This document shows positions 4,172 through 53,900 of a stretch of 64,000 bases of DNA, piece after piece (the stretch's first letter is position 1; the number at the start of each line of letters is the position of its first letter). The stretch covers positions 22,017,501 through 22,081,500 of the forward strand of contig NC_088303.1 of NCBI RefSeq assembly GCF_032854445.1, in the 5' to 3' direction. This DNA comes from Liolophura sinensis. Taxonomy: Eukaryota > Mollusca > Polyplacophora > Chitonida > Chitonidae. Position numbers and translations under genes: made by a program. Below the pieces are notes generated by a model. It did not search any database and had not been told where the DNA came from. It saw only the letters and a program-made list of their open reading frames with translations.

Positions 4172-5342
4172 ATGGACGACGCCGAAGGGGGTGAGGATTC
4201 TATGGAATTCTCCGAGGTCCGTTCCAGTAATAAACGCGTGTGCGATTTATCCTTGGATCGGGCGTCCTCTGAGGGGAAGAAACCTAGACAAGTAAACACC
4301 AGGTCAAATTCAGGCAATCACAGTGTGGTTATATGCTCTATGGGTGACCTGCCCATTACAGCGTGGAACAACATAAAATTTGGACAAGCGATACAGCAAG
4401 CTATCGGTAACATCAAACAAGTGAAAATGCAGGGTTCCAAGGAGCTATTAATTATATGTACGGGACCAGCCCAAGTTAAAAAGGCTTTGGCATTAACCTC
4501 TGTTATGGGACGTGATGTGCAATGTAGACAACAGTTATCTGCTAACCAAGCACGGGGTGTTATTTATGGGGTAGGAGATGAGCTAACTGAAGAAGATGAA
4601 TTGGCTGCTTTGAAGAAAAACAAATGTTATAAAGTGGAAAGGCTATATAAGGGGAGGGTGAAAATGAAAACAAAATGCATGCTGTTGCATTTCGATCTCG
4701 AGGACATTCCTACTGAAATTTGTTTAGGTTATGAAATATTTGAAGTCAAACCGTACGTTCCTCGGGTATTACGCTGCTACAAGTGCCAGGGCTACGGCCA
4801 TATATCGTCTTCATGCAGGGGAAAGCAGCGTTGTCCTCGTTGTGCAGGAGAACATGAGTTTGAGCAGTGTAGAAATCTGGATAGACCTAAGTGCTCTAAT
4901 TGCGGCTCCCTCGGCCATTCATCTGCATACCTGGGCTGTCCATATCGCAAGCAGGTTAGTAAAGCCCAGTATATTAAGGTAACGCAGAAAGTTTTGTTTG
5001 CCGAAGCTCTAAGAATGTTCCTGAAGAGAACAGTCGACCTTATCCTGAAAGTCCTGCAGAGAGGGCTTTACTTGAAGGCTCTGAATATTCACCATCTATG
5101 TGTAATAGTACACCACCTACGGATAACCTACGTATAACAGTACACAACCTCGACCAGACGTTCATCCTGTGAAACCCACCTCACAATTTAAGCGAGTTAA
5201 GCCCGTAATGAAATCTGCATTGACCCAAACGATGTCGGATTCATGTAATCAAACCGAAGATTTGTCTTTGTCTACGGCAGCTAATATCATAGCCGTGTTC
5301 ACTGAAGTAATGCTCAAAGCTTTTGAGGCTGATCATAGCTGA
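4172..5342 (+). pseudogene. LINE ORF1 (nucleic-acid binding, zinc knuckles), frameshifted
   Basis: The start ACCATGG (ATG at 4172) has a good translation context. The first frame runs to 5137. Residues about 205-260 hold three CCHC knuckles: CYKCQGYGHISSSC, CPRCAGEHEFEQC and CSNCGSLGHSSAYLGC. The last is spaced unusually, with GHSSAYLGC replacing the common GHxxxxxxC. Upstream is an RRM-like region of the kind found in ORF1 proteins, rich in Lys and Arg. After about 4990 the frame degenerates. A Pro/Glu/Ser-rich continuation is readable in the next frame, and a further shift near 5150 leads to a natural end at 5342. Such proteins coat the LINE RNA; this copy is broken. Confidence 0.8.
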
Positions 5343-5480
5343 AGTCTTCCATACCGCCCAGTCACGTGTCAACTTTACCCGTCTCAAGTCCATACTCTCT
5401 AGTCTGGTTTCTGCTGAGGTTTCGTAATGTTTATGTTTTCTAACCTTTATTGCTTCACTGCTTCGCTTTTTTCGGCAATA

Positions 5481-11793: not shown

Positions 11794-14700
11794 ATGTCGA
11801 CCGAATTTGACTGCATTAAAATAACGGTAAGTTTCATTAGAAATCTGGAGAAAATGTGCCCATCCACAACGATTGCCAAGTACCATAGCATAGTTACTGT
11901 CGATTATACAACAACAACTTCATCAGCAAAACGGTGTATCATCAAATATCTTGACCTGAGACGGGTATTACACTTCGTGACGATGTCATTTGGCAGACAA
12001 TCAAGAAAAAAACTCAAGAAAACCTAAAACCGTCAAGGTTTAATTTACGAACACAAAATAGATCTGTTATTGCCACCGTAGAAACAAACTAACAAACAAA
12101 AAACATGACCAGTGAGGGTGGAGTAATAAAAATAAAATTCTTTAAAATTTAAAAGTGCACCCAAGGCACTAGTCCTGTGGGGCTAGGCTCCTACACCTTA
12201 TGCTCCTTATTTTACCGAAATGAAGATGACTAAGAATGAAAGTAATGACACTATTTTATGTTTATAGTATATGTGAGTTAAAATGTATAAGTTTTGAAAT
12301 ATATATAGCTACTTCTGTTCATTAGTAGGATAACTTTCTTGCAACTTTCAAACTTTTCATAGCAGCGATAAAAGACTTTGTTACTTTGTAACAAAGTAAC
12401 TTTGCTTTGTTGCAATAAAGTAAACATCAATAAAACTTATATGCAGTCCTAGTTCCAATGGAGGGGACCTTGTTCAGTGCTGGCTGAGTGGTGGCGTTAG
12501 TTTAAACCACTAGCCCTGACCATTCCATGACTTTTATCCCATTGATTTTTTTTTTTTTTTTTTGATTGGTGTTTTACGCCGTACTCAAGAATATTTCACT
12601 TATACGACTGCGGCCAGCATTATGGTGGGCGGAAACCGGGCACAGCCCGGGGAAAACCCACGACTATCCGCAGGTTGCTGGCAGACCTTCCCACGTACGG
12701 CCGGAGAGGAAGCCAGCATGAGCTGGTCTTGAACTCACAGCGACCGCATTGGTGAGAGGCTTCTGGGTCACTACGCTGCGCTAGCGCGCTAACCGACTGA
12801 GCCCTTCATCCCATTGAGGTAGTCTACCATGCACACTCAGTTTTCTTCTCCTATTTACCTGACTGCCATGATTCAAATAAGTGAAATATTGTGGAGTAGG
12901 TCTTTCCTGTAAAGTACCATTGGAATATACTTAGTTCTGATGTGTTTTCCAGACGCCGCGTGAATGGCATGAGACTTTCATCAAGTTTGGGGAATCTGTC
13001 TCTGTGAATCGGTGTCAAGATAAAGACTGCTCTTGTGGTGCCCAGTTTCACTGTCCATTCTGTGAGCCAAAATCTTTCAAAGAGATTAATGCATTCAGAG
13101 TTCAGGACCATTTGGAGCAGTTTCATTGGCCAGCAGGTGTCCAGTACAAAGGTACTGATTGATTGCTTTGTGCATTGTTTACTCTATGGTCAAGATGCTT
13201 AACCAATGAGATGTTTCTGTCAGCATGTTATATGATTTGTTAAAATTTGGATGTTTGCATGAAAATTAAGGATTTAACTGGCTGTCATGTCAGAATTTAA
13301 TCTGTGCTTTGACATTATACAGTACATGCAGATAGATTTAACCAGTTTCTGACAGATCAGTGTTTGCCACAGGAGTCCATTTTAGAATGCTCAGCTGGTT
13401 TTGGAAATTGCATTCACATATTAAGGGCAGCATAGGGTAACTCTCATCCAGCAACACATGCTGTATATGTTGTGTGTGTTGCAATAGTTACAGAGAGAAA
13501 TAGCCCCAAGTGTGTCTTGATTGACAGTAAGGAACATTTAGCGCTGCATTTGTGCCCGTAGCATAAGTCTGCACCAACTGTGTGGTCTCCGTTATTAACT
13601 GAACTGTTCTTGAAAAATACTCACATTTTCTGAGCCTATGCCATAGCAGTTGGTGAGTTATTGAGAAGCCAGGCACAGCCTGATCAATTTTTTTTTTGTC
13701 AGTTTGTGTTATTGCTATGGAACACTTTTGGTTAGGACCCACCTAAGAACAGGTTACCGGTAGTTAATTTTCAGAGCTATTATGCAGGCAACATTGATTT
13801 ATGCTAGGGAAGATTTAATGCATGTGTGAACAGCGGTAAATGTTCCTTACTGTCAATTCGATGCATTTGGGCCTGTTTCGCTCAGTAACTCTGGCAACTT
13901 CATTGCTTGATAAGAGTTACCCCATTCTGCAACTAAGTCAAGTACATGCTTCTGCAATAATGGGAATGTTATATACACATTCGTGACATTACCAATTGCT
14001 GAAAATATGTAAGTTACCTGCTCATGATGCTTAAGTTCATACTCATGCTGGCTTCCTCTCCGGCTGTATGTGGGAAGGTCTGCCAGCGACCTTTGGATGG
14101 TCGTGGGTTCTGTCAGGTTTCCACCATAATGCTGGCTGCCGTCGTATAAGTAAAATATTCTTGAGTATGGCACAAAAATCCAATCATATAAATAAATAAA
14201 TAAATGCTCATGATGCTGTATCTGTTATCTTCCATGTATCAAAGTTACATAAATCTATATGTAATCTCCAGCATTGTTGACATGTTGTTCTCTTTCTTTA
14301 GATTTATTCATCGTGCAGTGTTTGCTGCATTGTGCAGAGAAGCGTCATGCACACTATCACTGCCCTGTGTGCACAGACCTTGTGGAGCAGAGAGAGGAGT
14401 TTGTCACACACCTGCAGGCACATTTGCTGGAGCAGGTGAGTGAGTGACATGTCAATCAAGTGTCTTGACTTTGAAGCATGTAGGGTTTCTCCAGGTTTGT
14501 TCTGTTTCAGTAGACCAGGTTACATTTTAACTTATTTTATTACGTCGTTTCCTGTCTCATGACCTGATGTTCGTATGATTGGCTGTAGGTGGCGGTTATG
14601 TTATGGAAATAACAGGAATCAGTACAAAGACTAGTTTAAGAGAACATAGTATTTTTATCGCACAATACCAGAGATATTAATTTTGTTCCGTCGGGCTATG

Positions 14701-17700
14701 CGTCCAAATGTTATTCAATTTTGAGAAAATTTTGTATTCAAGTTCACTTTGTGGAAGCTCAAATAAGTTTGTATCAACTGAATCCATGCATGTCGTTAAT
14801 TTTGCATATTGAATGAATTTAATGATTTTCTATAGATCTATAAGTCTATAGATTTCATGTAGATCAGTCAGCACATTGATCACAGTTTCTTTGCTTTACC
14901 CCTGGTTAACAGACTATATTTTGTCTTTGCCATGTTCCGTAAATTTTGTATTAAAATTGTGTATGGCAAATGACACAAAATTTTGCCCATGACCTACATC
15001 TACTTATACCAAACATTATATTTTCCATTATATATTTACCTGTAATGTTAACTTGAATTTGCTGCTAATCCCTTTGTTATTTATTAGTTGAATATGAAGA
15101 ATATTTACATGTGTTTTCATCCTTTATTTTTCATTCTCAGAAAGAAAGTGTGAGACTGGCTTACGCCCCTGACACTCAACAGCCTGAGCACCTTGTTTAT
15201 GAGGGTAAGATGATCTGTTTCTATGATATTAACTGTTTTCTGTTTCCTCTTAAATGTACGTGTATGTTTAAAGTAATTCCTCAACTAGCATAAAGTATCT
15301 CTGCTTAGAGCGTCTGCCTCAAAGCCGGGAGAACTCAGGGTCAAACCAAAGACTTTAAAACTGGTACTTGCTCGCCTGGTGCCCAGCACTGAGATGTTAG
15401 AGCAAGGAAACCCGACCGGTTGGCCCAGTGTCAGTGTAATGTGACTGTGTGGGGTGTCATGTCTAGTGTCTTTGGCTTGATACTTCAGTGACGGCAGCAC
15501 TTTGGTGACATGGGCACGCTCTGCCACAAGGAAACACAATATATATACACACACCTAATGGCCCTCATCGTCACATGACTGAAAAATTGTTAAGTATGAT
15601 GTAAAACCCCAAGCATACATACACACATACATAGTATCTCCTGCAATCTCTGGCATAAAGTATCTTATGCACTCTCTGACATAGAGTATCTTGTGCACTC
15701 AACTCTCTGACATAGAGTATCTTGTGCACTCTACTGTCTAACATAGAGTATCTTGTGGACTCTCTGACATAAAGTATCTTGTGCCCTCTCTGACATAAAG
15801 TATTTCCTGGGCTTTCGGGCGAGTTTAGAGTATCTCCTGTAAATAGTATGAGGTTTCTGGATTCACCAATGTAAAATATCATAGAAATAAAGGAGTTATC
15901 CTTTAACTTTATTCTAGGAAGAAATAAATCATTTCTTAGACAAAAGGTTTTTGACATCCTCACATGTTGTATGTATGGATGTAGTGTATGTACAGTATAC
16001 AAGTATATGGAGAACATTTGTGTCATTAAGTCTTAACATAGTTTTATGACTCTCTAATTGCCAAAAGATACATGATATGTGTACTATGTAACAATATATA
16101 TAGTATCAAAAAAGACAGAACAGAATACCTCTTTGAGGATCTTTAAGTGTTTTACCGGTATATAACCTGTACGTTCCTTTTTTGGCCAGACTACACACTG
16201 ACGCTGTGTGGCAAGGACTGTTCCATCATGTTTTCTGGCAGGAAGCATTATCATTGCCCTGGCTGTGGTGAATTACGATGGAATTGTGCCACTATAGCTG
16301 CTCACCTTTCTGAGTGTGAAGTTCTGAACAAACACAGGCCACATTCTCTCTTCACCGCCACTAAACAACGCCAGCTAATAGACCCACGCGTACAGTTTGC
16401 AAAACATGTAAGTACCATTTAATAATAATGGATCTCCCAGCCAGAGGGATTAAACATATTAACCTGGAGATTAGACCCCTGACTAGAATATTGGTCACGT
16501 GGTCGATTCCAGCAAAAATCCTTCTAACTGTGAATGTTCAGGTACAGCAAGAATAAACATTATGTATTCTCTATTTTCTTTTTTTTTATACACAGGTATA
16601 TACATTTCACCAGTTGTACCACATTTGCTCAATTGCCTTTATGAATAAGAATAGGTTTCACTCACTGATATGTAGGCAAGACATAATTCAAGACTTCAAG
16701 CTATTAAAGTCCCATGATGATATGCAGTTAGTTCAAAGAAACAGGTTTATTATTTTTTAATGTTATGCACATGACAGCAAGACGTGGAGGACAGATGTGC
16801 ATTGTTGGCTATGTTTTCTAACAAACAGGGATAGTTTATCAAGTTGACATTGAGCAATAAAAAGGATATTACTTTAAAATAAGATTAATTTTATCTCAGT
16901 AGTGTTTATTACATGTACATTTAAACTTGTCTGTAATGTGAATCAGTTCTCTTGCTCGTAAAATTTATAAAAGTCAATGAATGTTGTGGTTTAATAGTAA
17001 AATACATGTAGGCCTACAGTGATTGTCTTGAGCATTTTTCCCTTCTAATTTCATTGCCATCCAATAAGAATGAAATTACCTTGAGGTGAGTGTAAACACC
17101 ACAAATAAATCAGTTGTTACCTTACTTGTTTTGTTTTAATTTTGTCATTCTTGTTTCTCTCAGTGGCACGAGTCTATGGTACGAGATAACTATGATATTA
17201 CTGTCAGACGTTGTACACCAAAGTGTTGTGGGAAACAATACCACTGTCCTCTGTGCACATCAAAGACAAAGCCATGCATGGTTGCCATGCTGCGTAAACA
17301 TTTCAGCTACCATCTGGACCACTCTGTCAAACATAAAGGTCTGTGCCGACTCACTTTATGTAGCTATCTTGTCCTTGATTTCCTAAACTTTGTGCCATAT
17401 CTCATCTTTCGTATTTGTTGTTCCATATCTCCTAATTTCCCAATATACTTTCAGGTTTGTCATGTTTACTTTTGAAAAACCATTTACTATTGACCTTATA
17501 GGCAGTATTTCATTTTCCCGGGGTTTGTGCCTTTATAAACACAAACGTCACATCAGAATACAATTTTATCAGGTTTCATCGTAATTCTGCTGTTGTATAA
17601 ATGAAATACTCTTAAAGAAAAACAGGTTCGTTGCTGATTGGGTGATATGAGAGATAAATCCAGCTTGCCTAGCCTAATATGAATTTTGGGTACATGTACA

Positions 17701-20700
17701 TTGTGGCACATCTACCCAAGCATGTGACCAAGGCTCTAGGGTTTTATCTAACAAATCATATCTCCACTGTCAGCTAATCAGCATTGAGTCTTTATCTCTT
17801 TTAAAACCACAAAAACACACTAATAATAGAAATAGAGAATATTTTCTGTATAAAGTGATAATATTGGTTTATGTGCTGTATGGGCTTAATATGGCGGATG
17901 TTTTGTAGATGTGGTGCGAATTCGCCGTCATTTATTAATGGGTGTGCTTTGATAGCTGTCCTTATTTCTCCTGCCTAGGTTATCTGCTACTGGCCTGTTG
18001 TTTGGACTGTGTTAAACCGGGCCAAACTGATCCTGGAACCCATTACCATTGCCCGTACTGTGGCAAGTGTGTTCCTGATCGGGTGGAATTTACCTACCAT
18101 CTGATGGCCTGTGAGGGGTCCACCAGTACAAGCAATCATGATGACGTGGAAGATATACCTGCTGTTGATAATGATTTCAGCCTGGAAGACAGGGATGAAG
18201 AGTGGTTCAAGGTTCGCCCCAAGATCAGCCGTCCAAAACAACAACAAATCGAGGTAATTTAGATAGAATCAGAGGAAGTACATGCACATTGCGAGTGAAG
18301 CCATACAAGGAGTGGTTCATAGTCTGAGGGTTATACATGTAGGTGCTTGCCTGTCAGTCACTGGGACCCACAAGGTGCGACTTCAAACCAGGCCTTGCAA
18401 AGTCACTGGGAATTCCCAGTGACTGTGACTGTTACTGCTTTTGGGGTCTGGGTTTCTGTGTGCAGTTGACAATGCAGGTGTAGCTGTTGCAGAATGCAGT
18501 GTTTGTTGAAGATCATTTGTCTTCCACCAATGTTGGAAAGTTCGCCCTTAACTTGCAGAGGCCACAAAACTGACCACCATCACATCAGTTCAGATTCTTC
18601 ACTTGCATTAAAAAAAGTCAAATACACAAAACAATCAATTTATATTGGCTACCTGTTTAAATATTACTGAATTCAGTGTTTCTCATATCATGGCCTTTTA
18701 GTAATAAGGTGTAAGGTGAATAATGACTTAGTTCTTCTTGTTTTTTTTCTTTTGTAGATGTTTGAAACAGTTTTTGCCACATTGTCCCAGTCCTTCCTGA
18801 AAGTTTTCAACATGGAGACTTCAGATGCCCTGAAGGACATGCTGACTGAGGTAGCTGGAGCAACCCATGTGGAAGTCTGTTCCTCCCCAGGCACTGACCC
18901 GAGGAGGCCAGGATTCGCCCTGAAAGGAAGACTACAAAATGTTCTCAAGACAGAATCTCGCCTTAGTGAGGTAAGCAATGCTCTCCTAACTAAGACAGTC
19001 TAAGAAATGTTTCAAAAGAAAGATATGCCAAAACTGGTTTTAAGGTAATGGACAAATGAAAGCTTAAATGCTTTGCCAAGCCAGGAGAATCAAGCATTTT
19101 CCTAAAATCTGTGTACATTTTATAAGTTTTAAACTTTATTTACCACTTGGTATGACCAAAAAATGTTTAAGACTATATTAAATTTCAGTGAAAACAAAAG
19201 CCTAAAATGAAAATTTTTATTTAATTAGAACTTAGTAAGGTACTATATAGGTGATCTGTATTTGATGGATTTTGTGTGTTTTTAGAGTTGGAGCAACAAT
19301 CATATGCATGCATTTACATAAGATGTTCTTCAACTGTCATGACTGTTACCAACAAGAATGATGTTTGTTCCTTTCTCACTTATTTTCTAGATCTTGTTCC
19401 AACCTGTATAATATTTTTTTGTTGCAGAAATTCAATGAAGTTAATCAGGATGAGACACTTACACTGAAGACTTGTAAGTTAACACATTTTTGTATTATGT
19501 GAATCTCACTAGATTCTGCTGTCTGTTTATGGTGTTATATACTTTATGCCTATGTCCTAGTGCTGTAAGCGAAGTGTCCAAAGCACACTTCAGGCTGTTA
19601 ACCAGTAAGACAGTAATATTGCTTGTAGGTTGACAAAATGTCAGTTGCTGAAAATGGCTAAAAATGTTGACTTAAGACCGCCTTTCACATAAATATATAA
19701 AATCTGTTTGGGCATGATAAAAATTTGTCATTTGCTCTAAGAAGCCTGAATTATAGGTGAATTTTGACCCGAAATGCAAATGGGACATGCCAAATCATAG
19801 TAAATCAGAGTATTTAATACTCGAATCAAGGGAGAAAATATTGTCACTATGAATCCAGTGATCCAGGGCCCATTGTCTTGGGATTTCACAAAACCACTCT
19901 ACCCATATGTTAAGGGTACTAACTAGATGATATAGGCTGTTCTAATGAAGGTAGAATGATTCTATGTTGTATCAGGATTGAACTGTGCCTTTAAACCTAA
20001 CAGCATTTGCTAGTGTGTTTGAAATATGCTATTACTATTCGTTTCGGGGAAGTAGAAAGACATATTTGTGTACACGTAGATGAACGTTTTTGTGGAAAAG
20101 ATTATTTGTAACTGAGAGAATTACAGAAAAAGTCAGGTAAACTGTTTTAGTGTAGTCACTGATTACATGTGGGACATTTGATTTGCCTGTTAGGTCTGTT
20201 ATTAGTTTCTATCCAAGGAAAGAAATTAAAGTAAGCGTATTAGGAATTACTGACACCAACAGCACAAGTTCAAACCAAATTTTACAGAATAAGACCTTGA
20301 CACATATTGTGAACAGGAGGTTTATGTGCAATTCTTAAACGCATTTAGGTTTGCAAGATGGGCCATGTTAAATTCTTTTTCTCACTGTAATAAGCCTCAT
20401 TATATTTATTGATTGATTTTTGTATTTGTTTGATCCTTGGTTATGCGATTTTACGAATGTGAAATCTATTATTGTGTCGACAAAGCAGGGTAAACTTCAT
20501 TTATGTCAGTGTATATCTTCTTTTATAGACTACACACCCTTGCCAGAGAAGCCTCTCAGGTCATCAGTCTCCCTACAAACTTCCCCTGTGCTGGAAAATG
20601 TGCGAGTGAAACCTCTACCACCCAGCCGCCCTGCCCCACATGGGCAGCATCAGACCTGCGCCTGTCCGTCAGAGCCGTGTAATGCTGTTACAGACCATGG

Positions 20701-23700
20701 CTACTCCAAAGAGGCAGGAAACCAGAGCAAACCGTTAAACACCGATGAGCCGTTTCATCTGGAAAAGACTAACATAAATGTAGGATCTCAGGTTGCACTT
20801 GTGGGAAAAGAAAGTAGGACTCTCAACAATGTTGGGCAGAAATCAACTAGTGTTGTTCAAAATACACAGCAAGCTGAAGGAAACTCGACTGAGCCTTCCA
20901 AAATGACCATATCAGAGGCAGTAAAAGCCCTAAGTGGCCTTGCCAAGTTAATTCCAACACCAGTTGGATTGCTGAGATCAGAAGCTCAAGGTGTACACCA
21001 AACCTTCATCATACCTTCACAAGGAACTCCTCAAAACAGCCTGGGTAATGCTCCTGGAGCAGGTGTACACCTGTTCCAGCTCCCAGGTGCTCCAAGTGTT
21101 CAGCTTGGGAATTCAGCCAAAGCCAACGAACGGCCAAGTTCCCAAAGCGGAATGAGTTCAGGAAAAATAACATTTGTAAGGCCTAAAAGTGTTGCAGCGT
21201 CGAGGTTAACAGGCTCTGTTCTCACTACACAAACCTCAAATGAAAACATGACAGATTTACCTGTAACTGGTTCAAAAAGGCCTGCAGAAGTCACCCCTGC
21301 TGACCAAAATATGGTCCAGAAAAAACAAGACGTAACTGAACCTAAACGACTTCGCATAGTAGAGAATGTACAGAACGTTCATGGACATATTTTATCTCCA
21401 CAGGCATCATCGGGGTTAAATGCACTACGAAAAACACCTGTTTCAGCAACAGTGCTGCCCTCAAATAATTCCATGGGGATTACAAATCCTGCCTCCCCTC
21501 TGAAAACTGCCGAGTTAGGTACTCTAGAATCCCCAAAGATAAGCACAGCTGGTAGTAAATCAGCACCACAAATCAGAAGTATGGCTGTGGAGGACCACAG
21601 TAACATTACCGCATTGATTCCCCTTCAGATTGTTCCAAGTGCTAAGGAAGCGTCGGAAGTGAGCGACGCGTTGAAATACCTTGGTGGTCAGGCTAAACAA
21701 ACCAATCAGCACCCAGTTAAACAACAGGCCGTACAAACTTCTGACTCTTCTTCCAACTGTGATAAAGCCAGTAAAGTGGCTGATGGAATTACAGTAGTGT
21801 CAAGTTCATCTAATCGCCTTAGCAGAAGTGTGGCTTCAGATAAGCAGCCAATAGCGTTGTCAACTGAAAGACGGTTAACACGGAGTCAAATAGTTAACTC
21901 AGATGGGGCGAAAAATATATCTTTTTCCCCGATCCAGAGTGCTTCTGAGGGTCCGAAAAGGCTGCAAGATTCTGTTGTAAATGTGAAATCCACAGCAGTT
22001 TCGCCACTGTTCTTGCAGGATAATTCTCCAGCAGCAACAAAGGCAGCAGTATTTTCATCCGATCAAAGCTCATCCAGTGAATCCCCAAGAAGATACTATA
22101 CTCGAAGCCTCAAACATACACGGTCACCGGAGCTCCCTTGTAAATTACCCACAACGCAAAATGATGGACGCACGCCCAATATTCTCAAACGTGGATGTAC
22201 TTCAGTGATTAGTCCAGCGAAGGGTAACAGTCTGCTGGTTAAACAGAATATAAAACTGGCAGCACTGACTTCTGACTGCTCTTTGGATTCAGAAACACTA
22301 TGTGAAAAGGCCAACACATCAGCGGTCAAAAGCACAGTGCATAGTCAGAAGTCTGAGAGTCAAGTGGCTATGGTCAGTGATCAGTTAGTACAAATTTTGA
22401 GTTCAGATGACGAGCAAGAGTCGGAATTGATTCATCCAGACCTATCTTTTGAAATTCCAACCATAAGGTTTCAACTGAGTGATGCGCAAGGCACTGTAAG
22501 CTCCAGTCACAGTTGGACTAAGGTCCAGGGTGGTACTCAAATTGGTAAGCCACAGACCACTGGCAGCATGCCTTCAAACAGTGTATCAAACGGCGCAAGT
22601 GAACCTGGTAAGACCAGCCCAGAATTACCTAAGCGGTATTTCACCCGGGGAAGAAAAGTTGACACCAGCGTGTTGAAAGGACGCGGTAAATCGGCCAAGG
22701 ATACGACAGATAGGAAGAAAACACCTGAAACCGCTAAATCTACAAGAATACTTAGAAGTTATATGTCACCCAAGAAAAGTAAAAAAGGCTTAGTGTCACT
22801 CCCGAGCAGTAAACAGCCAGAATCCCCACGAAAAAAGCATTTAAAGTTTGAAACGCCTCTTAAATCTACAAAACCAGGGACTGTAAACAAGAAAAAACAA
22901 TCTGACGGGTACCCGTAATATCAGCACAAATGACACAAATACCAGTAGCACAAACACCAGTAACACCAGCCAAGGGAAGAAGAAAAGTGATCAAGAAGTA
23001 TCGCCTCTAGTTCTGTCATCGGAAGATTTAGCTACGCGTCGAAAAATTCCAACTGTGAGATTTCAGCTGGACATTGAGTTGGGATCTGAAAGTCAGAATT
23101 GTGGATGGACAGTAGTTAAAAAGGCTATGAAATCGCCTGAACAAGCCAGTGATAATATTTCTTTGGAAACTCCTACAAAAAATACCTTTCCAACAGATCA
23201 GATAAAGGCATTTGAGAAGCCTGGTGGACAGAATACTAGCAACATTTCAAAATGTAAAACGATGAAATCTCTTGCTTCTGTGAGTGCAGAAAGTGCAGTA
23301 CAGGAAAGCAGTCGTGCAAGTGTATTGGCATATCCCGTCAGCATCACAGATCCAGTAAACAAAACTTTAGTGCCCCAGTCAGGAAAAAGTCCTGTTGAGA
23401 AAGACGTTGAAATTTTAAAAGATGATGCTCCTGGATCCACAGCTGTTGAAGATGAGGCTGAATGCATTGGTGGGAGACCAGGACCTGTAAAGCTGTCATC
23501 GAAATCCAATATATCTACTTCTGGAAATCAGGGGAAAAGAGACCATGCCAAGGAACTGCCGTCCCATGTGCAGATAATGCGTTTACCCTTGCAAATTTTT
23601 CAGTTTTCTAAAGATGCTTCTGTACAGTCTATGCAAGTTGTTCAAAACAGTACCAGAGGGTGGATCTGTCTGTATTCCTGGGGCCTGTAAGACATCAGAG

Positions 23701-26660
23701 GTCAACCCCACCTAAAGTTAGCCAAACAGTAACCCCAAACCAGAATCCCTCATGCAGCCCCTAAATCGACCGGAACACAGATGTGTAGACTGCTCCCAGA
23801 AAAAATCCGATGGCGGAGAAGTACCTGTCCAAAAGTCCGTTGTGCTCGTTCAGTTTTCTGGAGCATCTTCCCAGTCTACACCTTCTCAGCCAGATATTTC
23901 ACTTCCGATAAATCATCTAGGACCAAGTCATCAAAATGTCCGCACCACGCGTGTTGCCTGAAGTGGTAAGTTCCAGTACCCATACGCCGAGCGATGGTGC
24001 ACAAAGCAGTATAAATAACTGCCAAAACCAATACTTCAAAGAACAGTGTTTCAAACACCAATATCTCCACGTTCTTCATTCCTGCACAGCCTCAACCATC
24101 TAAGCTGTTTGTTTCAAATTCGGAAATCCTCCAGCACCAAGTCAGAAACTTGATGTTGCCAGCAAAGTCACCAATCCAAAGTTGACCACACAAGATTGTA
24201 ATCGCAGTATCCTTAATCTGAACGTTCCTCCGCAAAACAGTGTAAATCAGAATAAGCTTAAAGTCAATTCTTCAAACACCAGTGTTTCAACGGTATTCGC
24301 CCCTGCACAGCCTTCGCCATCTAAGCCAGTTGTTTTCATTTCAAAAGATCCCTCCACAACAAAGTCAGCAACTTGATGTTCCTAGCAAAGTCTCCAAACC
24401 AAAGTTGACAGCACAGGATGCCCAGGTTTCTAATGGCAGTATTCTTAATCGGAAGGCTCCTCCGCAAAACAGTGCAAATCAAAATAACCCAAAAGTCAAT
24501 CCTTCAAACAGCAGTATTTCAACGTCATTAATCCCTACACAGCCTCAACCATCTAAGCAAGTTGTTTCTATTTCGGAAGATCCCTTAGCAGCAAGTCAAC
24601 CACTTTATGTTTCTGGCAAAATCACTCAATCCAAGTTAGCAACACAAGTTGCTCAAGTTTCTAATCGTAGTATTCTCAATCAGAACACACCCCGGCCAAA
24701 CAATGAAGAACAAAATAACTCTAACGCCGATTCAACAAACAGTGTTTCAAACACCAGTATCTCGACCTTCTTCATTCCTGCACACCCGCAACCATCTGAG
24801 CCAGTTGTTTCCAATTCGGGAAATCCTCCATCACCAAGTCAGCAACGTGATGTTACTAACAAAGTCACCACACTTAAGTTAGCGACACAGGATGCTCACG
24901 GCTCTGATCGCTGTGCTCTTATTTCGAACGTTTCATCGCAAAACAGTGAAAAGCACAATTTTGCAAACAATGTTTCAAACGCCAATATCTCAACGTTCAT
25001 CTTACCTGCACAACCACCGTCTGGGTCAAATATCTCGAGTCAAACTCCCCTTACTAAAAATACACTTGCAGTGAATAATAAATCGCGTGTCATTCTTACT
25101 AACAGGATTGCTCCAAATGCTGTCATATTAAGCTCATTAAGTACAACAGGTGTCAAATCTGAGCCTGCCCTTAAGCTTCCAGAGTTTCTGGAGAAACAGT
25201 CTTGCTACCTTCCAAATATTCAAACTGGACATCACACAGGAGACCTAAAGCTCGAGCGAACGATCAAGCGTTCTAAGTCGAAACACGTGGGATTCGCTTT
25301 GCCGAATCCCAAGACCAAGAAAGTCACGAGCAAATCGACACCCCACGGTGATCTTGAGAGAGATGATATAGAAACTAGTCCAATAACTTCTGCAGAGTTA
25401 CCCTTTGAACCATATTCTGAATCCTCACCAATTTTTAATGAAGTAGAGATTCTAAAAGCAGTTAGGGGCATAGACGCTATGGTGTTGACTGAAAAAGATG
25501 AAAGTACTGTTATCGAGAAGAGCATAAGTCCCTTTTGCCCGATATGCCGACGGAAGTTTGAGAAACGTGCCTCTCTCCCAGCTCATATCATGGCTAGTCA
25601 TTTTAAGTACAGATGCCAAAACTGTCTCGGAGTGTTCACAAAGAAGGAAATTTACGTGGAGCATCTCAAATCCGCACACAAAACTAACGGTGAATCCAGA
25701 ACCTTGATGGGGTCGCCTAATCCTTGTGGTGATTGTAACATGACATTTACAACTAGATCTGATCTGGATAGTCACCAACGTAAATTCCACAACTTCGAAA
25801 TACGTTGCTCTATTTGTGCTAAGACCTTTTCTGCTATAAGCGGTTTAAGAGCTCACATCATGACTTACCATTTGAGTGACGGACCATCGGTTTGCGATGT
25901 CTGTGGTAAATCATTTAGATTGTCGAGCTATTTGGCCAGTCATCGGAGACGACATTTTTCTGAAAGGAACCATGTTTGCTCCGTGTGCGGGAAACGCTTC
26001 AAAGAGAACTATTCTCTGAAGGAGCACATGGACATACACAAAGCACCCGGAGAGCGGAAGTATCGCTACATGTGCTCATATTGTGGAAAGGGCTTCAACT
26101 GTAAACCTTTATTTCGTGACCACACCAACTGTCACACCGGTGAGAAACCTCACAAGTGCCCTACCTGTGACAAAACCTTCTGCAGGCTATCTTCCATGAA
26201 AAAGCATGAATTGACTCACACTGATAAGCGACCATTTGCTTGTGAGTTTTGTGTCAAAGCCTTCAAAAGCAAGGAAGCACTGAAGACCCATGTTGTCACT
26301 CACACTGGGGTGAGTAAATTCAAATGCAATTTCTGTCACCGAGCTTTCGGGAACAATAACATAAGGAGGACGCATGTGGTAAGGTGTGAGAAGAATCCCA
26401 ATAGGATTTCGGTACCCGTGAACACTAGAAGGAAACAGCGGCGACCAGAGGAGAAGGCAATCGTGGCCAGGGCCTTAGAAACGTTGAAGAATGCGGAAAA
26501 TCAAGCCGTAGAAATAATGTCTGAAGTAAGCGACCTGACAGTGGAGTCCGATGAGCTGTCAAATGATGCATTTGTGTACATGTGTACTGCGTGCAACGAG
26601 GAGTTCGACGACGTCTTGACAGCAGGGAGTCACATAGAGCATTGTACAAGCTGGAAGTAG
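11794..26660 (+). CDS. Gene A: multi-zinc-finger protein, 10 coding exons, paralogue of gene B
   Basis: Exons: 11794-11826, 12953-13151, 14302-14435, 15141-15204, 16190-16407, 17164-17338, 17979-18253, 18758-18970, 19428-19473, 20529-26660. Phases are continuous through exon 9, and every junction is GT-AG. Exon 1 codes only MSTEFDCIKIT. Exons 2, 3, 5, 6 and 7 each carry a Cys-x3/4-Cys knuckle plus a YHCPxC or FHCPFC finger. Exon 8 codes a 71-residue conserved block without zinc ligands. Exon 10 holds a long Ser/Thr/Pro/Gln-rich part with KRYFTRGRK and IPTIRFQL motifs, about 77-residue repeats, then eleven fingers (nucleotides about 25534-26640): nine C2H2 and two C2HC. It is presumably a nuclear DNA-binding regulator; target and role are unknown. 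Between 22.88 and 24.40 kb exon 10 has several frame breaks, so a full-length product is doubtful as sequenced. The downstream finger frame (from 24282) is intact for 792 codons. Confidence 0.75.
12536..12817 (-). mobile_element. SINE-A, complete, with 10-bp target-site duplication, in gene A intron 1
   Basis: Minus-strand copy: a poly(T) tail at 12546, GATTGGTGTTTTACGCCGTA, the body, and the tRNA-like head ending at about 12804. ATCCCATTGA occurs on both flanks (12536-12545 and 12808-12817), which is the target-site duplication of a retroposed insertion. The copy is close to the consensus and so looks relatively young. It ends about 135 bp before exon 2. Confidence 0.9.
14019..14217 (+). mobile_element. 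5'-truncated SINE-A with 13-bp target-site duplication, gene A intron 2
   Basis: The insert (14032-14204) starts within the B-box region and ends in an AATAAATAAATAAA tail. TGCTCATGATGCT flanks it at 14019-14031 and 14205-14217. Truncation at the 5' end with a duplication is what target-primed integration leaves. It ends 97 bp before exon 3. Confidence 0.9.
15289..15636 (+). mobile_element. SINE of a second family (SINE-B), gene A intron 4
   Basis: The head reads CTTAGAGCGTCTGCCTCAAAG, with a weak B box (AGGGTCAAACC). The body has GGTTGGCCCAGTGTCAGTGT and GTGACTGTGTGGGGTGTCAT, and the right end GACTGAAAAATTGTTAAGTA and GTAAAACCCCAAGCATACAT. The same right end appears at 45300-45394. AGTATCT flanks it on both sides, and it sits inside a CATAGAGTATCT minisatellite. 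Confidence 0.75.
15626..15840 (+). repeat. Minisatellite, units of about 28-34 bp
   Basis: About seven degenerate units of the form CATAGAGTATCTTGTGCAC followed by TCTCTGA. One unit end (CATAAAGTATCT at 15290) lies on the other side of the SINE-B copy, so the SINE split the array. Confidence 0.8.
22887..24400 (+). other. Cluster of frame breaks within gene A last exon
   Basis: Coding composition continues, but the open frame changes several times. The first frame stops at 22918 just after an A6 run; the next is open from 22887 to 23690. A third then reads PKVSQTVTPNQ until about 23757, a fourth reads VVLVQFSGASSQS until 23961, and further shifts follow near 24030, 24125 and 24340. At 24125 and 24340, comparison with neighbouring repeat copies shows single-base changes: a missing G in the TCGGGAAATCC block, and one extra base in the CCTCCACAAC block. 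A GTAAGT at 23967 could serve as a donor. Whether this is decay, an unrecognised intron or assembly error cannot be told from one sequence. Confidence 0.7.
24012..25040 (+). repeat. Coding tandem repeats of about 230 bp in gene A exon 10
   Basis: Four to five degenerate copies run end to end. Shared blocks are NRSILN, PPQNS.NQN, NTSISTFFIPAQPQPSKPVV, and SQQ.DV..KVT..KLATQDA. Copies start near 24012 (partial), 24200, 24431, 24661 and 24904 (partial). The repeats are Ser/Asn/Pro/Gln-rich and presumably disordered. Gene B has no counterpart. Confidence 0.85.
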
Positions 26661-44985: not shown

Positions 44986-47900
44986 ATGTCACACGAATCG
45001 CGAAATATGAAAGTGTCGGTAAGACTGTGTCTGCAGCCGTCTGTGAAAGCTATCAAGTTATATTTTGCAAATATTACAACAACAACAACTGTATGAAGCG
45101 AAACAAATTTTAGGAAAGCTAATTTAAGAGCACGAACTGTCAGTAACTGAGTGTCAAACAAATTTCCAGAAATTCAGTAAATGAATGAAATATGATATTC
45201 TCAAAGTGTAATGTATTGTGAGAGATATCGATCAAAGTATCTGTAAGTATCCGTAAATAAAAGAGCGGTGGAAATCCGTCCTGCAACAAGGAGGCACATT
45301 ACACGTACATGCACCCTAATGATTCCTTCGTCGTCAAATGACTGAAAAATTGTTGAGTACGACGTTAAACCCCAAGCACTCACTCACTCACTCACTGTAG
45401 GTATCCGTACCATTTTTGTTTCAGACCAGCACGGCATCATCCCACAAGACTTTCATTCCGTTTGGGAACTCCGTTGTCTTGAAGCGCTGTGTTGACCTTA
45501 ACTGTGGTTGCAAGTCTTCCTTCCATTGCCCATTCTGTGATCTTTCACATTTTAAGGCTACAAAACCCAGCAGAGTGCAGGATCATCTGGAAGAATCTCA
45601 TTGGCCAAATGCTGTCCAGTACAAAGGTATTCTCCTGAAATGAAACACTGATACAGTACAACTGTCAGAATTATTCATTACTATCTTAATTCCTTAACCT
45701 TTCTTCATATAGAAGAGCAGCTTCTAGTGCAATTTATGCTCATTTTAATTTGATTCTGGGGACAAAAACTACATTGGTTGGATTGGCCAGTGTCCAAGCT
45801 TCGCAAAAAATATAATTTTATCACACAACACAGAGTAATGCCATCAGAATATGCTTGAATAAACACCTTGCAAGCATACGGAAAGGGTGAAGAAGTACAG
45901 TAGTTCAAATTCATGAGTGCACTTAAAAAGTTGGGCTCTATTAGAGCTTATGCAAGAGTGATTCATTGCGATTAATGATATTGTGAGAAATTTTTTTCAT
46001 GAGTGTGATAAAAACATTAGGGTATAAGATAGCTAATGCAGAATAGATCCATCACTGCGATAAATTATATTGTATCTTTCTCATGAGTGATAAAAAAAAA
46101 ATTGAGCAAATGCAAGATTCATTTGCTGCGATAAATCATATTGAAAGGAATGTTGTTCTTAAGTGTTCATCTTATTAAACAGATTAGGTTCTAACGTAGC
46201 TAATGCAAGAACAATTGGAACCTGTCCGATGCCTGGCAGCAGGTCCTTGACGTCATTGTATTGACTTCAAATGTTCCTTTCCCAGTTGTGAATGTTTACT
46301 TTGGACATGTCGGCTGGTTTGTCTCTCTAATTACCCTAATTCTTCAACTCTTTCAACCACCTGTGCAACCAATGTTAAGAAACATTCTGGGAAATCTCTG
46401 CAGTGTAGAGAAATCATTTACACAGTTTTATGAAGTTTGCATCTTTAATGACACAAATAAATCATTTTTATCATCATTTTCAGAATAATGGTATTCGTAA
46501 TTCCACTGGAAAAAGTGCTTTAGTGGTTGAAAAGGTGTCAAGTTTATCAGTGAGGGTAGGAAGTCCCAACCTTGAACATATATGACATAAAACAATAATC
46601 AAGTGAATCAATTAATAAATGATTTTTGTATCATTTATATTCTTCTATATTGCATTGATACATTTGACCTTGCAGACCTGTTCATTCTGCGCTGCTTCCA
46701 CCTGTGTGCAGAGGACATTGGGGGTCACTACCACTGTCCAGTGTGTCCAGAGCTTATTGATCGGAGGTTTAAATTTGTCTCTCACCTACAGGCTCATTTG
46801 GAGGACAAGGTTAGTTCTTCATTGTTAAATGATAGTTGGGTTGTCACCCTTTTGTGACCACAGTGCACATCCTTATTCTGGAAAGTACAGTACGACGGAG
46901 AACTTTGTGTAAAGGGACACCAAAATTATCATATTTCTTTGAGGAACCCATGGTGAAATAATGCACATTGTTATGTGGCCTGGAACTTACAAACCTGTTG
47001 CTCACTGCCATGCAAATGTCATAGCATGTTCTACTGCTTAGCCTGTTCAATTAGTGTGTGTGTTCGAAGATCCAAGAAACATGTAACTTGGCCCTCATGT
47101 GTAAAGCAAGCCGTTATAAATGCAGAAACGTGTTACATAAAGCATGATAATAAAGTTTTCAGCCTTGTAGATATATATGTAGTCCATATTCATAAAATAG
47201 GACAATTTATGTCACAAGTTTACTCTATATACCATTTGAGTAGTATAGAAAGTGACTCAGGTACATGGATATTGTTAATGACTATTGTTTAAAATGGACA
47301 AAACACTGGTAACTTTCTACTTTCCTAAAAGAAGTACTGTTATTCATATTTTCTCCATTATAAGTCAGGGAGGGAAATTTACCATTTGTTCAGAGGTCAA
47401 TAGTCTAGAAATTTTTGATTGTGATTTTATGTGCTGTGAAAACTATTTGCTTGAGTTAATCTGCTTTGATCAATGAGGCTGTGTGTTCAAACCCAGTGTG
47501 TGCAGCTTTGAGTCAAAGAGTTTGTCAGGTACCTAAAGCAGGGCGGGGATTTCCTCATTGCTCTGCCTGGTTTTCTCCACTCATAATCCTTTACTCATTT
47601 ACTAACTTTGTATTTATAAGCAGAATATTCTTGAATACAGCACTTTACCTTCATCAAGTTAGTCAATAAATTACAATCAGCTGTTAAACATCTATGAGTA
47701 CACTGTAAAACAGCAGTCAGATGTATTGATAAAACAATGAGGGATGTATGAGTGTGTAGTTATATGCATTAAATTCTTCTTCACAGGGAGAGAATGTCCA
47801 CTTAGCCTATGCTCCTGATGCCAAACAACCACCATGTTTGGTGTATCGGGGTGAGTCAACACCGCATGATACCTGTACATACCTGGGCATACCTGTGCTT

Positions 47901-50900
47901 GTCACCATTAGCCTGGCAATATTAAGTACACCCATGGATGCTGACGTAACACAGGGAAGTTTGATTTAGTTGGTATGGGCATGGTGTAGTGGTTAGAAGG
48001 GCTTACCTTCCTTAGCTGAGACACTTTGACAAGTGGGTTCAAACCAGGTCTTGGACAGTGAATTTGTAGATTCCCCTGCTCTCTCTCTGATTGAGTTGCA
48101 TTGGTGACAGTAAGGTATGGATGACGGTCATGTTATCCTTTGCGCAATCTTACACAGTTACCATGGTTACACTTGCTGAAGGAGATATTGTCCTTTGTCA
48201 TCATGAGTTAATTTGCTGAATTTCTGCGTCATTGCGATATCACAGTTATAAATTTAGACGGATTGATTGATTTATTTGGTAGTTTTCTACATGCAATGAT
48301 GATCAGTTTTATTGATGGAGAAAACCAGTGGCCAGGGTAAACCTTGGGCAAGTTTCTGACAAACTTTCCCACGTGTGGAATACAGACTGGCGCAGCACAC
48401 GGGTGGATGCTGAAGAAGAACTGGACACACTGTTTATTGTCATCATGACCACTAAGAACAGTGAAAGATTGGAGTCCACAAATTCTTTGGCCAAGTCTGG
48501 GATATTAAACGATGCTTCAAGTCTTAATTTATGCAGAACAGATGAAATAGTAACACTCTTCATCTGTAAGGGCAAGCATTTAAATTTAACAGTCACGGTA
48601 CTATAAATGTTGCTGGGGATACATTTACAAAGCGTCATTTTTCAGAAGTTTTTAGAAGAGGTTTCTAGGTTATATTTAAGATATAGATGGTGCAGATGTC
48701 ATTGGGAATGTAACAGCCTCTAGAATTCAGACAAGATATCAACATGTAGGAGACCATGTCAGGGATTAAACTGAAGACCATCTGTTTTATAACAGTTTTG
48801 TCTGGTAATCAGAATTCTGCATTTGCCTTGATGTTTAGACTTTACCTTACGTCGGTGTGAGGATAGTTGTTGGAATAACCCTGAGCCAGGACTGGGACAC
48901 TACCATTGTCCGGGCTGTGACAATATCCAGACTACCACCTCCAGCATGGCCAACCATCTCCGCAAGTGCTTTGCCCTGATCAAAATGAAGCAAGAAGGCA
49001 GTATTAATACCAGGACATTAGAAAACCCGCAGCAGGTCTTTGCCGAATATGTAAGTCTGGTACACATATAAACAAGAAAACATTTTGAATTTAAAAAATA
49101 GGAGTTTTGATATTGCAGGACATGTGGAAATGCACTTTTTAGGCCGAATTTGTGTTTTGTTATATTTTCATGAAGTACTTTCAGCATACACTTGTACCAT
49201 TGTCATTTTAGGCTAAAATCATGTGTGGCATAAAAACAGGATAAGACGATGATACTATATTTCACAGAAAGGTTAGCTTCTTACATTTGACACAGTTTGC
49301 TTGCTCCTAATTGATTCATTCACCTTATAGAGAAATTTGATAAATTTCTAGTCAGGGAAACAATGGAGTTGGCATCAAAAGTATCATTTTAAGGCCTTTA
49401 TGTGCTTCTGAAAGTGCATTTTTGTAGACCAAACCTGAAATGTAGTGGGGAAACAATGGAAAATCTGTTAATTGTTTTTAGTTTTGAAAGAATAAGAAGC
49501 AGAACAGGCTTCGTTTGGTGGGTATAATATATACACGGTTGCAAATGTATTAAAATCTGTCAGTATGCCTACATTGTACCTTATTCATTGGGTATGACAG
49601 GTATGACAACATTGGCTGTTTAAACAAGACTGACGCATGAAGTTTTATGTTATGCAGTTTATATTACTTGATGCACAACTTATGCAATGTGTATTTTTCA
49701 TCTATTCCAGTGGCACAAGTCTATTGTGAGAAACACATCAGACATTCCTATCCGTCGTTGTTGTTCTAGGAAATGCTGCAACCGTCTGTATCACTGCCCT
49801 CTGTGTACTTACGAAAGAACAGATCCTAACACGATCGCAAACCTACGCATTCACTTCAGCCATCACCAAGACAATGCTGTCACTCATAGAGGTTCGTCTA
49901 TCCAGTGATGCCAGTTTATTAAGGACTTTTTTGAAAAAAAAAAAAAGTTATAGGCAATATTTGTCAATTTCTTTTCTTTTTACTTTATTTTGAAGTTTAG
50001 AAAATACTTGTTTGCAGGCAGTTTGTATGTGGTCATTTCAATAATTTGTAGATCAGCTGTCAGGTATATCAGTTTGTCGCTATATCATCCATGGTTCTCG
50101 ATTGCCATTCATTGATCAGTCAGGTTAAAATGTTGACATTCACTTGTCTGAGCGGCAGGCCATGTCCTAAAGGGGTATATGAAATTTACCACTGCATAGA
50201 CGGACTTAATTTTTCGTTGTGACTCAACGTTTATACCCTTCGCAGCTGAATTAATGCACACGCTGATGTCATTGTTTTTTGTGGTGCTGCATTCCATGGC
50301 GTGTCATTGTGACTTCATAATCACGCCACTATGCCAGCGTTGCCTGCAGTTGACATATCTAGCATGATTTTTCTTATCTCAGCTTTATATATGTGCAAGG
50401 CTGGCTTTCTGTTTGCTAAATATTGTAGGGACAAATTCTTAATCCACACGTTGAGAAGGGTATCCGGAAAACCCCAGGCGGCTGTGGTTAGGGAGGGGAG
50501 GTTGCAGCTCTGGCTAAGGGTTCACAACCAAGGTTTAAATTCCCTTCTCAACGCGGGAATAACCTCTAGTATTACTGGTTGGAAGCAGAAATTGAAGTAG
50601 AAGTCCATTTCTATTCACATAGATCCCCCTTATCTTGGTTGATCAGACTGATCTATCATCATTTCTTGGTGTATATTGGAATATTATTGATCTAATGGAA
50701 TAGTGATTGAAAAACCGATCTCACGCCTAACTCATTCCTTTAGAACTTTGGGTAATCCCATGATTTGAATATGTAGAAGATAACTGGGAACACAGTTTTC
50801 AGAGGAAACTTCTGCACTTCCCTCTTACATATGTATGAAGCTAAGGCTCGACCCTTACACACTTATGATTCGGTGTTGTTGTTGTATTCCTACAGGCTAC

Positions 50901-53900
50901 ACTATCCTGGCCTGCCATCTGGATTGTGAACAATATGGAGTCGCCAATCCAGCCTTGCACTATCACTGTCCTTACTGTGGCACCACAAAGTCAGGCTTGG
51001 CACAGTTCTCCAGCCATTTAGACACCTGCAGACAGCTCAGCAGCCGTGAGATGGAGACTGAGGATGCCCCTGAAACTGAAATCAGCAGTGTCCTAGAAAA
51101 TGAAGATGTCCTGTGTCAGACTGTAGACTCAGATGATGACATGTCAGGAGGTGAAATGGATAGGAGCCTGCCTAGACATGCTCTGGATTCTAAGGCACAA
51201 ATTGAGGTATGGAATGGTGCTTTGTTTTTAAGCTGAGTCAGCATTTCAGGAGTCTCTTTGAGTTCACACAAATTGGAACGAGACAGTGTGGGGCTCTCAC
51301 AAACTATTGCGGCTAAAGACGTGATTTTACTGTAGCTGCTAACAGCCCTGTTGGTTCAGCAGAGCCGGCTATGTGAGATGTGTACTCAGTCTAGCAAGTA
51401 CTGTAAAATTCCGCCTTTTACCTTGCGAGAGCCCCCAATCTATCTCGTACATGTCTGAGTGAACTGGTGGGACTCCTGAAATGCCAAGTCAGCTTACTGT
51501 CACACATATCTGGTAGGTACTCAAATGGTCACGCATATTCCAGAGGTATAAGCATTATTTACATTTAACTCTAGGCCATAGCGAATTGCCCTTTTGTCTG
51601 ATGAAAAAAGTGTGGACTGCAGATCCAGGGTTCGTTATCAGAGGCTTCAGACTTGAGATGTGGGACAATGTTGTCGCAGTTAACACTAACCTTACGTTAA
51701 GAAAGATATTTTCAGTCCAGTAGAAAAGTTTGACAGCTCCAGGTTATATTGAGTTTCTTGCTTGTTGAGTGGTTTAATGATAGATCCTTACCACTGATTT
51801 TGATATCCACAAGCCATTGATTACAGCACAGCTGTGCTCCAAACCCAATTTAGTGTGTTATTTACATGTTTACTGTTTCAACAACCCATTTGAAGAACCC
51901 ATTTGCAGGTTGCTGACAGGCCTTCCCAAGTACAGCCCAAGAGGAGTTCAGCATGAGCTGGTCTTGAACTCACAGAAACCACTTTGTGGGAAGTTTCCTG
52001 GGTCATTGCGCCACGTTGGTGTGCTAACCCCCTTGACCACACAGGCCCCCATCACACTTTATTATGCAAATAGAGCGTGGGGCATTGTGCTTGAACAAAT
52101 GCCACCCAACTGACCAGTCAATTCTTGTCTTGTTATTATCACAGTTTGCTATCATTAAGATGAAAAACCCTATTCAAGTCAATTTGGGATCTGTCACCAT
52201 ATACCACCAAAAAATGATCATAGTAATTATTGTTTGGATAAAGAGTGGAAGGATAACAAATGAGATATCTCACAAATGTTTTTGTTTTTGACTTTCACAA
52301 GGATAATTTGTGTGTCATTATTCACAGTGCATTTGTTTCATATTTACATAAAATATGATGTGGTTTAGCTGTGCCCAGCTGTGGAATTCCATCAGTGTAA
52401 ATAACAAATTTGTTACCATAAAGCATGAAATATTACATTTCTCTCTGAAGAAAACCCTGATATTTCACCTATAATGAATATGTATTTATGGTGTAATCTG
52501 GCTTTATTTACCCGGAGATGGCGGCCTCTGTGGCTCAGTTGGTTAGCGTGCTAGCGCAGTGTAATAACCCAGGAGCCTGTCACCAATGCGGTCACTATGA
52601 GTTCAAGTCCAGCTCTTCCTCTTCAGTCGTACATGGGAATGTGTGCCAGCAACTGGTAGTTAGTCATGAGATTCCACCAGTCTCTGCCTGGTTTCCACTC
52701 ACCATAATGCTGGGCATGGTATACATATAAGCGAAATATTCTTGAGTATGACAAAAACTACAAATAAATAAATAAATTTTAATGTGGATTTTTCTTGCAG
52801 ATGTTCGATTCAGTCACAGCAACCTTATCACAGCCATTCCTCAAAGTGTTTAACTTTGCTACCCTTGTTACCGCTGAGAAGTTGTTATCAGATGTTGCAG
52901 GGGCAACAAGTGTAGAGTGGATCTCCTCCCCAGGCACTGACCCCAGCCGCCCTGTCCTTAGTGTCAAGGGATGCCTCGCTAACATTCTTAAAGCCGAGTC
53001 CTATCTGTTTGAGGTAAGAAATTGATTTGGTTTTGAGTTTGACAGCCCTTTCCTGACCACTGATTTGATACCTTTCATTCAGTAGGTAAGTCGACCTTCG
53101 CTCTAACATAAGTGGAAATTAGATTTTACTTTTAATTTATTCCTCGGACATGCCTAACAGTCAAACTGAAAGTGATAGTTTTGAGTGTGTGTGCTAGTTT
53201 ATTAGAAATGATTTCAGTCACTGATTTCACTGATTTACAGCCAGACATTGAAGTAACCATGGTGTCTCATTTGTGGTTTTTTTTTTTGTATTTCTGAATT
53301 TTTGTGTCACTGTTATGTTACCGTAATTTTTTTCTCTATGAAAGAGCAACATTCAGGTTTATACACCTTTTTAATTTGATTTATGATTCAAAACTATGTA
53401 CACCAATTTCAGGACTTTTAAAATTTTATAAGTTTACGCAGAATATTCCCCTCAGAATAATGATCTTACAAACATGCGAAAAGGTTGAAGAATTACAGTA
53501 ATTTCATCTCAGGAAGGTGTCCCCAAGACATTCTCCTCGCTGAACTGAAGGTCATAGGTGGGGTCCAAATGAGTCCGTAAACTTTTCTTATGTACATGTT
53601 TTTAATGTGCAGAGAATTAGTAGATAATATTGTAAAACTCTAGTCACTTTTTATTAGTTGGTTGGTATTCAGATAAGAAATAATGTTCTTGAGTACTGTG
53701 TAAAACTCTAATCAAATAAATATATATATCAAATGAGAAGTGAAATGAGTGTACTTGAAAGGTAAAACCTCCTGTCACAGGAGGCTTACATCATTTTTTA
53801 CACTTTATGTCATACCCAGTAGGTACCAATAACTATTCAAGTTTTATTCTATCCTCAGAAATTCTTACAAATCAACAATGACAAAAGTGTTTCTGTGAAG

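Follow-up and report, generated by a model that had tools for sequence, protein, structure and literature searches.

The closest described counterparts of the system reported here are the C2H2 zinc finger (PF00096, PF13894), the binuclear treble clefs (RING, PHD, MYND), and the ZAD proteins, CTCF and CLAMP of Drosophila, which combine a special N-terminal region with a C-terminal C2H2 array (PMC10983669, PMC8998743). Our analysis concerns a stretch of 64,000 nucleotides from the polyplacophoran mollusc Liolophura sinensis (assembly GCF_032854445.1, contig NC_088303.1, positions 22,017,501 to 22,081,500), hereafter the window, which holds two genes, A and B, on the same strand with their exons 2 starting ~32 kb apart. 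Both genes open with an array of five modules, of type 1 (exons 2 and 6) or type 2 (exons 3, 5 and 7), and both carry a conserved exon 8 and end in a C-terminal C2H2 array. By its sequence pattern, each module combines a C2H2 or C2HC finger with a knuckle on its N-terminal side, and a related module opens the coding region of an element dispersed through the same genome.

With the C2H2 finger the modules share, in their finger half, the CPxC and an aromatic residue two positions before the first Cys, as well as the C-x2-C-x12-H-x3-[HC] spacing of type 2 and a predicted beta-beta-alpha fold. They differ from it in an invariant knuckle and a His directly before the finger's first Cys (both found in 0 of the 22 C-terminal fingers of A and B), in the x14/15 spacing of type 1, and in an array score below the Pfam cut-off. 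The layout of A and B recalls that of the ZAD proteins, whereas their array consists of five tandem modules and gave no ZAD row in Pfam up to E 10 in either gene, a search in which HMMER filters drop weak matches. If the second site proposed below is real, the treble clefs would be alike in that a single small domain holds two zinc ions; their half-sites are interleaved along the sequence (PMC4999995), whereas those proposed for A and B would be consecutive, with the last ligand of one beside the first of the other.

Exon pairs and the repeat history of the array

The original prediction, made from the sequence alone, held that exons 2, 3, 5, 6 and 7 encode a knuckle followed by a [YF]HCPxC finger and that exon phases alternate 0-1 and 1-0. 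Both claims stood: knuckle and finger are present in 10 of 10 modules, a count from which one out-of-register match at residue 271 of A was dropped, and exons 2 to 7 of A and B alike run 0>1, 1>0, 0>1, 1>0, 0>1, 1>0 (0-1-0-1-0-1-0 through either gene), with AG before and GT after at all borders. The finger endings, described as HLxxH, HLxxC or similar, need correction for exon 6, which ends in H-F-S-x-H instead of HLxxH. Exons were predicted from splice sites and A/B conservation, and the features are as follows (window positions, all on the + strand).

11794..11826, +, gene A, weak candidate for exon 1 (11 codons, phase 0 out), one of four upstream ATG..GT candidates
12953..13151, +, gene A exon 2, type-1 module
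14302..14435, +, gene A exon 3, type-2 module
15141..15204, +, gene A exon 4, short, without finger
16190..16407, +, gene A exon 5, type-2 module
17164..17338, +, gene A exon 6, type-1 module
17979..18253, +, gene A exon 7, type-2 module and acidic tail
18758..18970, +, gene A exon 8, conserved domain common to B and a third paralogue
19428..19473, +, gene A exon 9
20529..22918, +, gene A exon 10, long low-complexity region; frame closes with a stop
24246..26660, +, gene A C-terminal C2H2 array, separate open frame
44986..45018, +, gene B exon 1
45425..45626, +, gene B exon 2, type-1 module
46676..46809, +, gene B exon 3, type-2 module
47787..47850, +, gene B exon 4, short, without finger
48839..49050, +, gene B exon 5, type-2 module
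49711..49891, +, gene B exon 6, type-1 module
50896..51206, +, gene B exon 7, type-2 module and acidic tail
52801..53013, +, gene B exon 8, conserved domain
55670..58944, +, gene B exon 11, long low-complexity region and C2H2 array, one open frame

Gene B reads as a single 1616-residue frame over 11 exons with its sole stop at the end, its exons 2 to 7 spanning 45425..51206; the candidate exon 1 of gene A was picked because its length equals that of gene B exon 1. The N-terminal parts of A and B share 49% identity. Over 436 codons, the proportion of differing synonymous sites (pS) is 0.80, which is saturated, and that of nonsynonymous sites (pN) 0.35, and on this comparison A and B are old paralogues under purifying selection.

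The similarity of exon pairs was expressed as z scores against 300 shuffles per pair. The resemblance noticed earlier between exons 2 and 6 (z = 15.9 in A, 10.5 in B) was borne out, as was that among exons 3, 5 and 7, where both exon 3 against exon 7 (11.4 and 8.9) and exon 5 against exon 7 (9.3 and 11.1) lie far above the shuffles. Moreover, the pair 2+3 of gene A matches the pair 6+7 end to end at 34% identity (E 9e-20 in a single comparison), which identifies these pairs, at the sequence level, as clear duplicates. Of the ancestral triplication that had been proposed, the two-exon module and its repetition are thus well supported, and the inclusion of exon 4 as a degenerate member is not. 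Specifically, the suggestion that exon 4 is a type-1 exon with a lost finger has position and phase in its favour and no sequence support: among eight comparisons (the two exons 4 against the four type-1 exons), seven were equalled by 142 to 258 of the 300 shuffles and one by 11 of 300.

A model of the whole array, with a mean predicted local distance difference test score (pLDDT) of 35.5, places a strand at residues 128-131, near the end of exon 4, and at once a second strand at 134-139, the start of exon 5. If these adjacent strands are real, exon 4 may be kept because its strand may complete the module of exon 5. On the reading favoured below, the array comprises three rounds of a two-exon module, type 1 followed by type 2, at the start of two old paralogues, with a middle round that lost, or never had, its type-1 finger.

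Ligand patterns, fold and a probable second zinc site

Type-1 modules follow the pattern C-x3/4-C-x0/1-C-x4-H, then CPxC-x14/15-H-x3/4-H, and type-2 modules C-x3-C-x6/10-H-x-H, then CPxC-x12-H-x3-[HC]. These eight-ligand patterns fit all 10 modules (5/5 per gene). Any eight-ligand match occurred in 1/20,000 and 0/20,000 shuffled array regions of the two genes, a test that was not blind, as the patterns were written after both genes had been viewed, and this tells against the reading built on it. Conservation is concentrated at the predicted ligands, 40/40 of which are identical between A and B, compared with 3/14 of the other Cys and His residues (Fisher p 3.8e-9) and 109/253 of the remaining residues of A. 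Every module has a His immediately ahead of the first Cys of its finger, and a third Cys (4/4 type-1 modules) and a His three positions before that first Cys, His(-3) (6/6 type-2 modules), replace each other. Because of this ligand conservation and the exchange between types, a second zinc ion is probably bound by the knuckle Cys residues together with the His that immediately precedes the first Cys of the finger. One array would hold ~ten zinc ions, because each of its five modules would bind a second zinc.

The original prediction knew no named domain with this layout, and it would have been refuted by a strong Pfam match or by structure models showing ordinary independent C2H2 fingers. The outcome was divided between the two halves of the module: the whole arrays of A and B matched no Pfam family at gathering score, and the finger half proved to be of the ordinary C2H2 kind, leaving the knuckle half alone as unusual. 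The nearest families were DUF5810 (PF19126) in the B array (24.8 bits, cut-off 26.9; 7 bits in the A array), zf-C2H2 (PF00096) in the A array (15.1 bits, cut-off 25.2; not listed for the B array) and zf-Di19 (PF05605) in the A array (13.3 bits, cut-off 27.5), and the ten modules scanned apart gave zf-C2H2 as the best match among those listed (E 0.00087). Spacing separates the types, x12 being found in the finger of 6/6 type-2 and 0/4 type-1 modules (x14 or x15). A sequence search of the PDB with the A array returned one match only, at E 0.96, and five module motif strings had no match in the papers of the literature searched.

These observations bear on the alternative that each module holds a single zinc ion in its C2H2 finger, with knuckle residues that are structural, redox-active or used in interaction. 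In keeping with it, only the finger half of a ten-module profile (positions 16-45) matches C2H2 structures (Aart, E 2e-13). Likewise, in a model of gene A exon 5, the sole module modelled alone (6-row alignment, each row being a whole exon of the window), the finger is beta-beta-alpha at pLDDT 87-88 over residues 21-40 and the knuckle less certain at 66-69. The finger half is, on this prediction, an ordinary C2H2 fold and the knuckle the unusual part. We nevertheless regard a single zinc as doubtful, since the knuckle ligands and the preceding His equal the finger ligands in invariance, and the third Cys and His(-3) substitute for each other between module types. On the other side of the balance for two zinc ions, the knuckle is weak in both structure models, whole array and exon 5, and the second site is a proposal drawn from ligand patterns.

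Relatives of the module elsewhere in the genome

The 609-Mb assembly containing the window was searched with several queries from the array. An array query covering exons 2 to 5 gave 48 matches, of which 10 lie in A and B, 34 mark loci of a dispersed element and 4 stand at E 0.18 or worse. The 34 loci, on 13 contigs, all match the exon-2 finger (query residues 18-69; E 9e-5 to 0.0034), all are stop-free within the match, and 30 belong to frames of precisely 92 residues. In the copies read as DNA, this frame contains Cys residues followed by FHCPLC-x15-HLRAVHW, with the finger spacing of exon 2. Three of the loci, on contigs C3, C8 and C6 (L045, L046 and L044), were so read: the copies on C3 and C8 show 96% identity over 4.6 kb before they diverge, those on C3 and C6 are 98% identical over 3.1 kb, and the C3 and C8 copies are flanked by inverted tandem arrays, with a 53-bp unit in the C3 copy (L045). 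On these sequence features the element is probably a large DNA transposon.

Contig C8, 42659001-42674000, L046 with L047, probable DNA transposon of large size, flanked by inverted tandem arrays, with multi-exon frames

The element may resemble KDZ/Zisupton-type transposons (SWIM-like CxC..CxH, HCxxC); the putative SWIM-like CxC..CxH was seen by eye in L046 and had no Pfam match at cut-off in the frames scanned.

Against exons 2 of A and B the type-1 module of the element scores z 15.9 and 16.0, against exon 6 4.7-5.8, and against a type-1 profile 42.1 bits, where 32 control fingers reach at most 11.7. By these scores, the module in the element's first coding exon is homologous to the type-1 module of A and B. 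A splice-like site follows its frame in phase 1 with a split codon starting with G, the kind of junction seen in A and B (6/6 split codons starting with G), and an acceptor, AG followed by GT, lies 1.2 kb past the donor in 3/3 copies. The next frame, whose protein was read in L046 only, contains C-x4-H and then H-F-H-C-x2-C-x12-H-x3-C. This second module looks like a homologue of type 2 by its order, spacing and intron. The element thus resembles A and B in a type-1 module close to exon 2, a phase-1 intron and an ensuing H-x-H-C-x2-C-x12-H-x3-C finger; it differs in having one pair, not three, a His for the second knuckle Cys of its type-2 part, and transposon reading frames next instead of exon 8 and a C2H2 array. 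Such correspondence suggests a common origin for a transposon part and a gene regulator.

A third paralogue, gene C (contig C12, L013), has exon 8 (53% identity) and a frame with C-terminal fingers, and a profile search of 80 kb there (~54 kb upstream of exon 8) found no module better than E 0.38. A finger-like frame ~2.3 kb before its exon 8 could be a remnant of the array. As gene C retains exon 8 and C-terminal fingers but shows no recognisable array, the array is, in sequence terms, a separable part that was gained in A/B or lost in C. Exon 8 itself encodes a conserved domain of ~70 residues without a Pfam match, in three genome copies (A, B and C); a low-confidence model gives it a helix-helix-strand-strand-helix order, which we take to be perhaps KH-like.

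An intact array outside A and B was not found in the genome searches made (exons 6+7, HYHCPxC and exons 2 to 5). The exon 6+7 query gave 12 matches, six in A/B and six others at E 0.057 or worse, two of which were read and rejected. The pattern HYHCPxC occurred at 11 sites (backward control, 2), six being the type-2 modules of A and B and none of the other five having both knuckle and helix ligands in frame. Viral contigs showed no pattern match to the exon 6+7 protein and, among 146 stretches from alignment A1, no relative; nor did 71 stretches from the same alignment in prokaryote contigs. In viral contigs, alignment A6 led from 20 stretches to two loci (L001, L002) with the same phage frame containing HYHCPVC, rejected as chance because it lacks the knuckle and HxxxH.

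As to the remainder of the window, the C-terminal frame of gene A lies in three parts (20529-22918, 22887-23690 and 24246-26660), where gene B has one open exon, and the split at 22887-24246 may be due to introns that escaped notice, to an error in the assembly or to decay. Between A and B, at 36747-41719, lie frames of a gene resembling DNA polymerase iota, with IMS and UBM matches above cut-off; the name "iota" is our reading of the sequence. Frames of a non-long-terminal-repeat retrotransposon with CCHC knuckles and an endonuclease lie upstream of gene A at 4166-8077. Repeats resembling transfer RNA-derived short interspersed elements, judged similar by eye only, occur in introns and flanks at 12541-12800, 52520-52760 and 54381-54620 and are presumably of a kind familiar from molluscs.

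Origin and possible role of the array

The reading that we tentatively favour is that, in the common ancestor of A and B, a module pair of transposon type joined a C2H2 gene that was already there, that this pair later multiplied, and that the resulting array of two-zinc modules would now be an interaction platform, for protein or nucleic acid, of a DNA-binding factor. Several results pull the other way. One of the three element copies read has a GC donor instead of GT (GT in two), the type-2-like knuckle of the element has His in place of the second Cys, and its second module, at 17.7 bits against 15.5 for the best control, cannot be separated by score from ordinary fingers, its pairwise scores of 48-57 against type-2 modules being exceeded by one control finger at 67. 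Moreover, the element frames scanned matched no Pfam family at cut-off, the array may be lost from gene C or survive there in a greatly altered form, and the direction of transfer is drawn from one species.

The converse transfer, in which the transposon captured its module exons from an A/B-family host gene and the array is an old host domain, would be compatible with a second zinc site, and we consider it unlikely. It accords with the age of the array, which is conserved between paralogues with saturated synonymous sites, with the youth of the two nearly identical pairs of element copies, and with the element's closeness to one exon, exon 2. However, the element has further zinc-like motifs of its own and its phase-1 intron occupies the same position, in keeping with a long-standing part of the element, and the third paralogue is without a recognisable array. 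That the array is a second DNA-binding array acting like classical C2H2 fingers is improbable: a Foldseek search of the whole-array model put DNA-binding proteins of the C2H2 kind at the top of its list (CTCF, TFIIIA; best E 2.5e-3, none <=0.001), but that model is weak, neighbouring fingers of A and B lie 53 to 78 residues apart from first Cys to first Cys, far above the spacing of classical arrays, and their linkers differ from the TGEKP kind that is the rule there.

Returning to the favoured fusion with a C2H2 gene, A and B are likely DNA-binding regulators because of their C-terminal C2H2 arrays, and the N-terminal array most likely serves protein interaction, by analogy to C2H2 factors with N-terminal interaction domains (PMC8998743, PMC10983669). 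The boldest version, which is speculative and to which we give little credence, is that a two-exon binuclear zinc module from the start of the protein of a large DNA transposon joined a host C2H2 factor and was triplicated, and that through it the host protein may recognise the DNA or protein of the element and so control the element itself.

The eight-ligand pattern predicts two zinc ions per module. As a module and an intron position are common to a host C2H2 factor and a dispersed element, some copies of which are young, it can be tested directly how transposon parts become regulators and whether the element is a target of the host protein.

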